Of a stretch of 34,210 nucleotides of DNA, positions 31,026 to 34,210 are shown piece after piece. Below the pieces are notes generated by a model. The model did no database searches and had not been told where the DNA came from. It saw nothing but the letters and a program-made list of their open reading frames with translations. The translations under genes were made by a program, and so were the position numbers. The DNA is from Salinicola peritrichatus (GTDB taxonomy: Bacteria > Pseudomonadota > Gammaproteobacteria > Pseudomonadales > Halomonadaceae), in the NCBI RefSeq assembly GCF_003206715.1, contig NZ_PZJU01000046.1:11762-45971 (forward strand), written 5' to 3'. Every line of letters begins with the position of its first letter. Position 1 is the stretch's first letter.

Positions 31026-31436
31026 ATGAGCGCTGATAAATGGCAGACGATCGACGTCAAGAATATCGACAAATCCGCCCGATCCCTGCATGCCTGTTCG
31101 CTGGATCCTTCCATTCGCTGTCTGGCCGAGCTGCGCGCCTCGCAGATCAATGGCTGCCTGACTTGCACCCATTTCCGTCGCGAGCAGGCCGAAGCCATGG
31201 GCATTTCGGCCAGCAAGTTGTCTGCGCTGACCGCTTGGGCCGAATCGGATGAATTCGATGAGCGCGAGAAAGCCGCCCTGGCCTGGTGCGAATCCTTTAC
31301 GCATTTCCGTCCGGCAGACCCCGCCACTCGCAAACTGGCGTTGACGGCGTTTTCACCGCGCGAACTGGCGGATCTGACCATGGCGATAGAGATGACCAGC
31401 GCACTCAGCCGCGCTTCGCGCCGCTCCGCGGTCTAG
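31026..31436 (+). CDS. Carboxymuconolactone-decarboxylase/AhpD-like protein
   Basis: 136 residues with AGGAGA 5 nt before the ATG. The CMD-type core is SIRCLAELRASQINGCLTCT with the redox pair C44-x2-C47, then AEAMGISASKLSALTAWAES and ALAWCESFTH, LALTAFSPRELADLTMAIEM. Related proteins act as alkylhydroperoxidases. The usual proton-relay histidine four residues after the second cysteine is not in place (position 51 is Arg; a His is at 49), so peroxidase activity may be altered. It is transcribed alone toward the Crp/Fnr gene. Confidence 0.8.
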   Translation: MSADKWQTIDVKNIDKSARSLHACSLDPSIRCLAELRASQINGCLTCTHFRREQAEAMGISASKLSALTAWAESDEFDEREKAALAWCESFTHFRPADPATRKLALTAFSPRELADLTMAIEMTSALSRASRRSAV

Positions 31437-31794: not shown

Positions 31795-32523
31795 TTATTC
31801 GACTAGGTCGATATCGTCATAGAGATTGCCGGAGATACAGCCTTCCGACGCCAACGCCTGCGGATCGAGTATGTGCACCCAACCCCGGGCTCGTTTCAAC
31901 AGCCCTTCCTGACGAAACGCCGTCAGCGTGCGGCTGACATGTACCGGCGACAACCCCAGCGCGTCCGCCAGATGCTGCTGTGACAGCGGCACCCGAAAGC
32001 AGTCTCCCAGCGCCTCGTCGTTGCGCTTGAGTCGGGAAAACAACTCGAACAGTAGATACGCCACTCTTTGGCGCGCGCTACGACGCGAGAGATGCACCAA
32101 CCGCTCGCTCAAAAGTGCCTGCTGGTAGGAAGACACCGCGAAACAGAGCGAGGTCAAACGCGGGGAATCTCGAAAGATATCAAGCAGGCGTCGATGCGCG
32201 ATCAGTCGAATCTTCCCCTCCTCCAGCATTGCCACGCTGGAGAGCCGCTCCTTGAAAGGAAACTCACGCAATCCGATGACGTCGCCTGGCAAGAAGATTT
32301 CCAGGATATGTCGCGTGCCATCCTCCAGATATCGGAAGGAGTAGGCCCACCCCCGGCTTAACGTACAGAAATCGCGTGCTGCGTCTCCTTCGCGCCAGAG
32401 GACTTCTCCTTTAGCCATGACGGCGGGCGGTCCCTCGAGTGCATCAAGCTGGCGACGCTCACTTTCGGATAGACTGCCATAATAACCGAAATGTTGAGCG
32501 ATACAGCTTTCCTGCTGTTCCAT
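31795..32523 (-). CDS. Crp/Fnr-family transcriptional regulator
   Basis: 242 residues from ATG at 32523 with AGGA upstream. An N-terminal cyclic-nucleotide-binding-like beta barrel (GEVLWREGDAARDFCTLSRG, LEIFLPGDVIGLREFP, ~residues 38-100), a dimerisation helix and a C-terminal winged HTH with PLSQQHLADALGLSPVHVSR broken at ~184-203 and TLTAFRQEGLLKR. No FNR-type cysteine cluster at the N-terminus and the cAMP pocket is not conserved, so the signal is unknown. The HTH closely resembles the fragment at the right edge of the window, so the two are paralogues. The 367-bp upstream region holds a candidate small RNA on the other strand and a GTTATATAAC palindrome at 32578-32587 that may be its -10/operator. 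Confidence 0.9.
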   Translation of the reverse strand: MEQQESCIAQHFGYYGSLSESERRQLDALEGPPAVMAKGEVLWREGDAARDFCTLSRGWAYSFRYLEDGTRHILEIFLPGDVIGLREFPFKERLSSVAMLEEGKIRLIAHRRLLDIFRDSPRLTSLCFAVSSYQQALLSERLVHLSRRSARQRVAYLLFELFSRLKRNDEALGDCFRVPLSQQHLADALGLSPVHVSRTLTAFRQEGLLKRARGWVHILDPQALASEGCISGNLYDDIDLVE

Positions 32524-32734
32524 TGCATTCCTGCCTTCTTAAAATTTTTCAGGAATGACAGCATGTTAGAGGGATGAGTTATATAACACCGGTTAGATAG
32601 ACAGGCGAAATGGTCCAAGCTATCAGCCATGTTTCCAGCGCTTGTCGATAACGTCGGGGATGAGGTCGGACGGAACCAAAGCCGAAGAGGCAGCGGCTGT
32701 TACAAAAGGCTTCTTTTTAGCTCTTCCTAATATT

Positions 32735-32878
32735 AAAGAGATATTGGACACTCTTCGAGTGGCTCAGCTACAGGGTCACTTTCTCGCATACCACCTTTAG
32801 CGTTCGGAGCCTTACCCACTCGAAGGCTCCAGCTGACCCGATCCGGATAAGGCTCGTCTACCGATCGGGTCTTTTTTT
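32735..32878 (+). ncRNA. Candidate small RNA with alternative hairpins and strong terminator
   Basis: The spacer 32524-32890 has no coding frame but shows ordered secondary structure on the plus strand. Hairpin A is CACTC-TTC-GAGTG (32749-32761). Hairpin B is GGAGCCTT-N9-AAGGCTCC (32806-32830). The terminator hairpin has arms at 32835-32843 and 32863-32871, then seven T. TTCGAGTGG (32754-32762) is fully complementary to CCACTCGAA (32816-32824), and GAGCCTT of B can pair with AAGGCTC (32849-32855) in the terminator loop, so A, B and the terminator can exchange partners. GGA triplets at 32746 and 32845 are unpaired or in loops, as in CsrA/RsmA-binding RNAs. No plus-strand gene follows. The 5' end is a guess; no clear promoter was assigned. 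Confidence 0.5.
32835..32878 (+). terminator. Strong intrinsic terminator on the plus strand
   Basis: Perfect 9-bp stem GACCCGATC / GATCGGGTC with a 19-nt loop followed by TTTTTTT. No plus-strand protein gene lies upstream within 1.4 kb, and genes on both sides are on the minus strand, so it must end an untranslated transcript. Confidence 0.85.
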
Positions 32879-32890
32879 GGCCATCGCCGA

Positions 32891-33124
32891 CTAGCGTTCG
32901 GTGCCTGGAGCCTCATCGCCCGGCAGCCCCTTCTCGACCGAATCGGCAACCTCGTTCTTCACATACTTCTCTTCGCGCTTTTGCATGTCACTGGTGAATT
33001 CGGCCTTCTTCCCGACGATTGCGCCGCAGGCTCCGCAACGGACCTCCTGATCAGGTGCATCCCCCGGGGGAATCTGTAGACTTTCGCTGCCACATTGAGG
33101 GCACCGGGTAACGGTATCTGTCAT
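32891..33124 (-). CDS. Small zinc-ribbon protein
   Basis: 77 residues with AAGGAG 7 nt before the ATG at 33124. Two CxxC pairs, RCPQCGSESL and VRCGACGAIVGKKAEF, form a rubredoxin-knuckle zinc ribbon (C8, C11, C30, C33). The C-terminal half is charged and helical (DMQKREEKYVKNEVADSVEK). Similar short proteins are annotated as hypothetical zinc-ribbon or stress-island proteins; the function is unknown. It ends 12 bp from the plus-strand terminator at 32878. Confidence 0.78.
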   Translation of the reverse strand: MTDTVTRCPQCGSESLQIPPGDAPDQEVRCGACGAIVGKKAEFTSDMQKREEKYVKNEVADSVEKGLPGDEAPGTER

Positions 33125-33388: not shown

Positions 33389-33793
33389 TCATGAGTTGCG
33401 ATTACCGCTACTCTTTCCACCTTTTTCGCCGGCTCTTGATGCTTTCTCTCGATCGTTGGCGAAGTTCCCTCCGCTATGTTCTCCGCCTTTTTGGCCTGCT
33501 TCCGAAGCACGCTCCGGGTCGTTGGCGAAGTTACCACCGCTGTGCTGGCCACCTTTGTGACCCGCTTCAGAGGCACGCTCCGGATCGTTAGCGAAGTTAC
33601 CGCCACTGTGCTCGCCACCCTTGCGGCCGATATCTTCATAGAATTCCCGACCATGGGATTCGGCAGTGGCTTTACCTCCTTTCTCACCGATGTCTTCGTA
33701 AAAATCCTTATCGTGAGTTTGTGAAGTAGCCTGCCCACCTTTCTGGCCTGCTTCGTTAACGCTCATGCTGTCTTTGCTACGCTTGTCAGCCAT
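33389..33793 (-). CDS. KGG-repeat general stress protein (GsiB/con-10-like)
   Basis: 134 residues, GGGAGGT before the ATG at 33793. The protein is built of about five KGG repeats of 21-23 residues, two of the type DFYEDIGEKGGKATAESHGR and then three 22-residue, 66-bp units (KGGEHSGGNFANDPERASEA, KGGQHSGGNF..., KGGEHSGGNF...) that are nearly identical at DNA level. Extremely hydrophilic, Gly/Lys/Glu-rich with no Cys or Trp, like hydrophilin proteins (B. subtilis GsiB, Neurospora con-10) made under desiccation or salt stress. Copy number of the 66-bp units could vary. Monocistronic with a terminator at 33205-33233; the 231-bp upstream is AT-rich. Confidence 0.87.
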   Translation of the reverse strand: MADKRSKDSMSVNEAGQKGGQATSQTHDKDFYEDIGEKGGKATAESHGREFYEDIGRKGGEHSGGNFANDPERASEAGHKGGQHSGGNFANDPERASEAGQKGGEHSGGNFANDREKASRAGEKGGKSSGNRNS

Positions 33794-34024: not shown

Positions 34025-34210
34025 TTAATCAGGCATTCCTAAATGAAGATAGAGAGGATCGAAATCGCCTGCTTCTTTCAACTTCTCCCAGTCAGGAATG
34101 GTCATCTGGTTTCTCTTGGTCCGGATCAGGCCATTGGCACGAAGCGCCTGAAGAACCCGGTTCATATGGACCGGGGTAATACCGATCGCATCAGCCTGTA
34201 GTGGTCAACT
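34025..34210 (-). pseudogene. Broken Crp/Fnr-family regulator, C-terminal fragment
   Basis: Leftward from the edge the frame reads ADAIGITPVHMNRVLQALRA then NGLIRTKRNQMTIPDWEKLK and ends LYLHLGMPD with TAA at 34025-34027. That is the recognition helix and wing of a Crp/Fnr HTH, close to the intact regulator at 31795-32523. Upstream of ADAIG, where LTQ-x2/3-L should stand, this frame has SPLQ preceded by an in-frame TGA at 34205-34207, so the reading frame is interrupted. Similarity stops at 34196, where the sequence TGTAGTGGTCAACT begins. A frameshift or, more likely, insertion of a mobile element has disrupted the gene; the rest is outside the window. Confidence 0.6.
34197..34210. mobile_element. 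Possible insertion-sequence end at the window edge
   Basis: TGTAGTGGTCAACT starts exactly where Crp/Fnr similarity ends. A terminal TG is typical of IS3-family ends, and the sequence looks like such an inverted repeat from memory. Only 14 bp are visible, so this remains tentative. Confidence 0.3.

Follow-up and report, generated by a model that had tools for sequence, protein, structure and literature searches.

A predicted small RNA gene of about 120 nt that occurs as two sequence types in part of the genus Salinicola

Comparative analysis of a 34,210-nt stretch of the Salinicola peritrichatus genome (the window) indicates that the spacer upstream of a Crp/Fnr-type regulator gene very likely contains a real small RNA gene, which most likely specifies an RNA of about 120 nt on the plus strand (about 32759-32878). 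The same gene anatomy is repeated in a set of eight genomic copies, which fall into two types (A and B) according to the sequence behind a shared 5' hairpin. From this anatomy we consider it fairly probable that the locus is a free-standing gene for a base-pairing small RNA, with an activator-type promoter, a 5' hairpin, a pairing stretch, an Hfq-type terminator and a type B sister elsewhere in the same genome. The initial annotation of this DNA had proposed a structured, trans-acting small RNA with a switch-like design; the structured RNA gene and a layout typical of trans-acting RNAs are upheld by the present analysis, whereas the switch design is not.

The spacer (32524-32890) was described at the outset as gene-free and AT-richer, which agrees with its GC content of 0.49 vs 0.634 for the window. 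It lies between two minus-strand genes, one encoding the Crp/Fnr-type regulator (31795-32523; PF13545 and PF00027) and the other a small zinc-ribbon-like protein (32891-33124) with Pfam matches below the cut-offs, beyond which a KGG-repeat stress protein is encoded on the same strand (33389-33793; PF10685). Only one plus-strand open reading frame of at least 40 aa touches the interval 32735-32878, namely a 52-aa TTG-start frame (32642-32800), which stops within the RNA and carries an in-frame stop in the relative G003, as judged by eye. It had also been claimed that there is no plus-strand gene for the terminator of this interval to end, and this was confirmed by the list of frames of at least 40 aa, in which the nearest plausible plus-strand gene lies at 31026-31436. 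Assignment of the terminator to that upstream gene was rejected, the Crp-type gene lying in between in the opposite orientation, as was assignment to the minus-strand neighbour (32891-33124), for which the T run is on the wrong side. At the end of the window, the minus strand of 34025-34210 appears by eye to carry another Crp/Fnr-type gene, represented by its C-terminal part and cut at the contig end; the contig (G000:C52) ends at the last base of the window.

The distribution of the RNA was examined in 18 genomes of the genus Salinicola, 275 genomes of the family Halomonadaceae and 390 genomes drawn from the order. A nucleotide search of the 18 genus genomes returned the window itself, G003 and G011, and the type A core, sought directly with three mismatches allowed, was present in two of 151 family genomes (the own genome and G003). 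A pattern of the conserved upstream block, again with up to three mismatches, matched two places in the own genome and one in each of five others (6 of 275 family genomes). A covariance model of the block and 5' hairpin (R1, built from seven copies) then identified eight copies in 7 of the 275 genomes (E 1.4e-16 to 3.3e-13; next match 0.455), of which only that of G017, scoring 94.1 bits, was an independent find. A second model, R2, covered just the RNA and was trained on all eight; it retrieved the identical eight copies (E 6.0e-29 to 4.6e-14; next match 0.022). When R1 was applied with laxer filters to the genus alone, the RNA was found in 7 of 18 genomes and not in the other 11. In the draw from the order, which includes few genus genomes, the own genome alone matched at E <=0.1. 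The RNA is thus restricted, as far as these models can tell, to part of Salinicola, with no other confident match among the 275 family genomes. Weak R1 matches in four genomes (E 0.455-0.864) were regarded as chance, the anatomy being absent by eye, and weak R2 matches in eight genomes (E 0.022-0.858) as well as three weak R1 matches in Crp-type loci (E 0.89-6.9) were dropped as chance on score. A phage origin was also rejected, since the exact upstream pattern occurred in none of the viral-contig stretches.

Type A comprises the window copy and those of G003 and G011, and type B comprises the second copy of the own genome (G000:C36) together with those of G005, G006, G015 and G017; the own genome is the only one of the seven carriers with both. 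The promoter and the 5' hairpin are common to the two types, and the stretch after the hairpin differs (UUUCUCGCAUACCAC in type A vs GUGUCUCC in type B). The small gene beside the type A copies of G003 and G011 has a related open frame beside the own-genome type B copy (tblastn, 49-56% identity, E 2e-16 and 1e-20), and because a related small gene adjoins both types, a single ancestral locus is probable for the two copies. In 3 of the 16 orthologous loci that were examined, the Crp-type gene and type A are no more than 1.5 kb apart. A tree calculated for the Crp-type protein from the untrimmed frames of 16 orthologues and two paralogues, with G002 and G004 left out, grouped eight non-carriers in a well-supported clade (100/99) with the carriers outside it; the branching order among carriers was not settled, and the non-carrier G008 was placed on a long branch.

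Several additional features were observed around these loci. Small proteins of the form SLASLA...MPVGTLK...GRPR adjoin the RNA in three genomes, the own type B copy included (L003 1749-1967, L004 1860-2102 and L022 1573-1800, minus strand). A further hairpin with a T-run (GGGTTGCTCCC...ATCGGGTCTTTTTT), which may be another small RNA or mark where an upstream transcript ends, precedes the type B promoter by roughly 20-110 nt in L018, L021, L024 and L038. L018 and L038 also contain near-identical DNA repeats, which lie no more than about 0.7 kb upstream of their type B copy and show up as repeated peptides (GEP...ATRRSK/ATFKTAP...) when chance frames are translated.

A promoter-like arrangement precedes the RNA in every copy. 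The block TTACAAAAGGCTTCTTTTTAGCTCTTCCTAAT (32700-32731, plus strand, -59 to -28), conserved in the eight copies from seven Salinicola genomes, is probably an activator site that extends into the -35 region. The -35-like hexamer TTCCTA (32724-32729; TT[AC]CTA at equal distance in all copies) and the -10-like hexamer GACACT (32747-32752; family pattern nAnnCT in all copies) are separated by 17 bp in 8/8 copies, and the -10 element is invariably followed after 6 nt by the 5' hairpin, whose first strand begins GTG[AG]CT. This register is equal in all eight, the G017 copy being one base shorter upstream of the -35 element. Within the -10 element, A at -11, C at -8 and T at -7 are fixed in every copy, and position -12 is always G or C and never T; a -10 element with C at -8 resembles those of sigma-S promoters. 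Based on the promoter spacing and the position of the hairpin, we infer a start at 32759, exactly at the hairpin. A scan for consensus promoters and terminators called neither element at this place, its loop limit being 3-8 nt and the loop of the terminator here 19 nt.

When folded from 32759, the window RNA reaches -41.1 kcal/mol (z = -3.05), and z-scores ranged from -2.3 to -6.4 among the six of the eight copies that were folded. The predicted structure begins with a 5' hairpin of 7 bp, leaves most of the next stretch unpaired, and continues through a middle hairpin to the terminator. In each of the eight copies, the 5' hairpin gives way to a stretch of variable sequence and then to a terminator hairpin whose tail is rich in T. 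The 5' hairpin (GUGGCUC-N7-GGGUCAC, 32759-32779) is paired in every cell of the 8-copy alignment, with both sides changed in two of its seven pairs. The following stretch UUUCUCGCAUACCACCUUUAGCGUU (32780-32804), which the alignment and the fold point to as a candidate pairing seed, has a mean unpaired probability of 0.76 over RNA positions 22-46 in the window RNA, and its first 15 nt (32780-32794) are identical in the three type A copies. The middle hairpin GGAGCCUU-N9-AAGGCUCC (32806-32830) is paired in 83.3% of type A cells and has compensatory changes in two of its eight pairs; in the minimum-energy fold of G003, ACCUUU is paired into the middle helix and the middle hairpin is not the pairing adopted. 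The corresponding stretch of type B is less open (0.48-0.61 unpaired), part of it being paired. The intrinsic terminator (32835-32878, plus strand) is formed by a 9-bp stem of GACCCGATC (32835-32843) and GATCGGGTC (32863-32871) that encloses the 19-nt loop and is followed by T7 (32872-32878); its stem shows compensatory changes, and the T tail is interrupted in the own-genome type B copy (TTTCTTATT).

The stems are conserved in relatives, with compensatory changes across the eight copies. For the 5' and terminator stems together, 98.2% of 112 cells are paired and 5 of 14 pairs show double changes, values that were each matched by 1 of 500 shuffles, and sliding the stems out of register left only 5.9-44.8% paired. 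The number of further pair types was not above the shuffles (159 of 500 as high), and an earlier count with seven copies and six pairs had no measure above them (205 of 500). For the three-hairpin fold of the three type A copies, 91.3% of 69 cells are paired with four compensatory pairs, which were matched by 13 and 16 of 500 shuffles.

Taken as a base-pairing small RNA, the gene would be transcribed over 32759-32878 of the plus strand from the -35/-10 promoter with its upstream activator-type site, and transcription would be ended by the intrinsic terminator. The 5' hairpin may protect the end of the RNA, and the pyrimidine-rich stretch behind it would pair with the start regions of messengers, with CCACCUUU of the type A stretch being able to pair with the Shine-Dalgarno-like AAAGGUGG; the terminator and its U tail would be a likely landing site for Hfq. 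The type B RNA of G000:C36, which has a like promoter and another stretch (GUGUCUCC...), might respond to the same signal and act on different messages. This type B stretch contains UCUCC, which, like CCACCUUU in type A, appears suited to pairing with message start regions. The complement of 32780-32794 was searched with up to two mismatches in the three type A genomes, which gave 7, 5 and 5 matches, RNA genes included, and 5, 1 and 7 matches for a reversed-pattern control, that is, no clear excess in these three genomes. The single orthologous pair of matches was located within a long frame of the opposite strand, and the three genomes had no start-region match in common. That G003 and type B pair part of the candidate seed slightly weakens the case for the full mechanism. 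The type A evidence consists of three sequences.

The strings on which the switch proposal was built were all located in the window as described. A 9-bp inverted repeat, TTCGAGTGG (32754-32762) and CCACTCGAA (32816-32824), can be extended to 10 bp (32753-32762/32816-32825), and GAGCCTT (32807-32813) has two AAGGCTC partners (32824-32830 and 32849-32855). Of 2000 dinucleotide shuffles of the 144-nt interval, 2.0% contained one or more 9-mer inverted repeats and 0.1% a 7-mer with two partners; when the window was divided into 474 overlapping tiles of that length, 33 contained a 9-mer inverted repeat. The repeats are therefore unusual yet not unique. These rare repeats would favour an RNA that acts by refolding between mutually exclusive pairings, as would the nearly equal energies obtained if the RNA started at 32735 or 32740, in which case the first alternative (32754-32762/32816-32824) costs 0.8 kcal/mol only. 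Such a switch is nevertheless highly improbable, as neither alternative is kept in relatives. Exact 7-mer complementarity between the arms is confined to the window copy and was found in 0/7 others, a result independent of the type A alignment. Within the three type A copies, the first alternative is paired in 14 of 23 cells (nine being the window's own) and the second (32807-32813/32849-32855) in 9 of 21 (seven being the window's own), both no better than column shuffles. Given the inferred start at 32759, five of the nine bases of the first arm fall in the promoter, and forcing the alternatives costs 12.2 kcal/mol (with the four remaining pairs) and 10.0 kcal/mol, the energies of the second referring to the form without pseudoknot. 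Since this start is inferred, the energy argument is conditional, whereas the conservation argument is unconditional, so that the case against the switch rests on conservation and not on energy alone.

Other explanations concern known RNA families and coding potential. No Rfam family was matched at curated thresholds anywhere in the window, in agreement with the initial annotation, which had not recognised the RNA as a known family. In a permissive cmscan, SdsR_RyeB (RF00111) matched 32772-32877 at 20.1 bits through a core that includes CUUUAGCG, anti-hemB (RF02837) scored 16.0 bits (cut-off 49.5), and a third family scored 12.7 (cut-off 50). The RNA could accordingly be viewed as a distant RF00111 member, i.e., a sigma-S-dependent, Hfq-bound RNA of the SdsR/RyeB type, which would fit the C at -8 of the -10 element as well as the 24.1 bits (E 0.27) that SraC_RyeA, the family of the antisense partner, scores on the opposite strand of the relative L003. 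However, this membership appears very unlikely: the score is well below the cut-off of 38, 0/18 genus genomes exceeded that cut-off, and a genus-wide RF00111 search at E <=10 missed the window place and returned ten other places (16.0-21.6 bits), none of which is among the eight copies. Moreover, CUUUAGCG occurs in two of three type A copies (it is lost in G011) and in none of the five type B copies. A short protein gene, either a leaderless GTG frame of 13-15 codons at the start of the RNA or a mini-ORF of the minus strand, 18-20 codons long in type A, is suggested by frames that are open in most copies by eye, but this possibility is highly unlikely as well, because a 1-nt insertion in the loop of G005 breaks the GTG frame with the stem kept, the G011 frame continues beyond the stop of the others, the minus frame closes early in the type B copy of G000:C36 (all by eye), and the terminators point to the plus strand. 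A protein-sequestering role, which had been considered at the outset, would suit a stand-alone structured RNA, but one of the CsrA/Rsm sponge type is extremely unlikely, given that such sponges carry several conserved GGA motifs in hairpin loops, that the alignment of all eight copies contains no invariant GGA, and that neither the curated nor the permissive Rfam search gave a CsrB/Rsm family match here; a weak RsmW score elsewhere in L021 (20.9 bits, cut-off 52) has no bearing on it.

The preferred reading, a base-pairing small RNA with its own promoter, becomes most interesting on the side of the sibling pair with diverged pairing stretches. We tentatively suggest, at somewhat less than even chance, that the two RNAs are siblings with a common activator-controlled promoter and 5' hairpin and diverged pairing stretches, through which one signal would reach two sets of messages. 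It is possible, with a similar degree of reservation, that this pair represents a lineage-specific duplication with seed divergence caught within the single genus Salinicola. If true, a promoter-tied small RNA pair would provide a small, testable case of new small RNAs arising by duplication. Among the titles and opening parts of abstracts surveyed on SdsR/RyeB and on small RNAs of Salinicola, Halomonas and Halomonadaceae, neither a Salinicola small RNA nor the RNA of the window was found.

Compared with known systems, the window RNA resembles SdsR_RyeB in size, hairpin order and the short CUUUAGCG stretch of two type A copies, but differs from it in reaching only about half of the curated score and in lacking the motif in the rest of its own family. 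Its likeness to anti-hemB, a Burkholderia small RNA, consists of weak scores, obtained by the type A RNA and, at 17.8 and 18.9 bits, by two type B copies; however, all of these scores are far under the cut-off, and other places in those two type B loci scored 17.4 and 16.7 bits. Hfq-dependent trans-encoded small RNAs are typically specified by intergenic genes of about 120 nt with their own promoter, a 5' stem, a partly open stretch and a U-tailed intrinsic terminator. The window RNA differs in having no Rfam relative at the curated threshold, and shares with them, at the level of sequence anatomy, the promoter, the 5' stem, the partly open stretch, the U-tailed terminator and the intergenic location and length of about 120 nt. 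It is a new and narrowly distributed family of a familiar kind, which as a type of regulator is ordinary.
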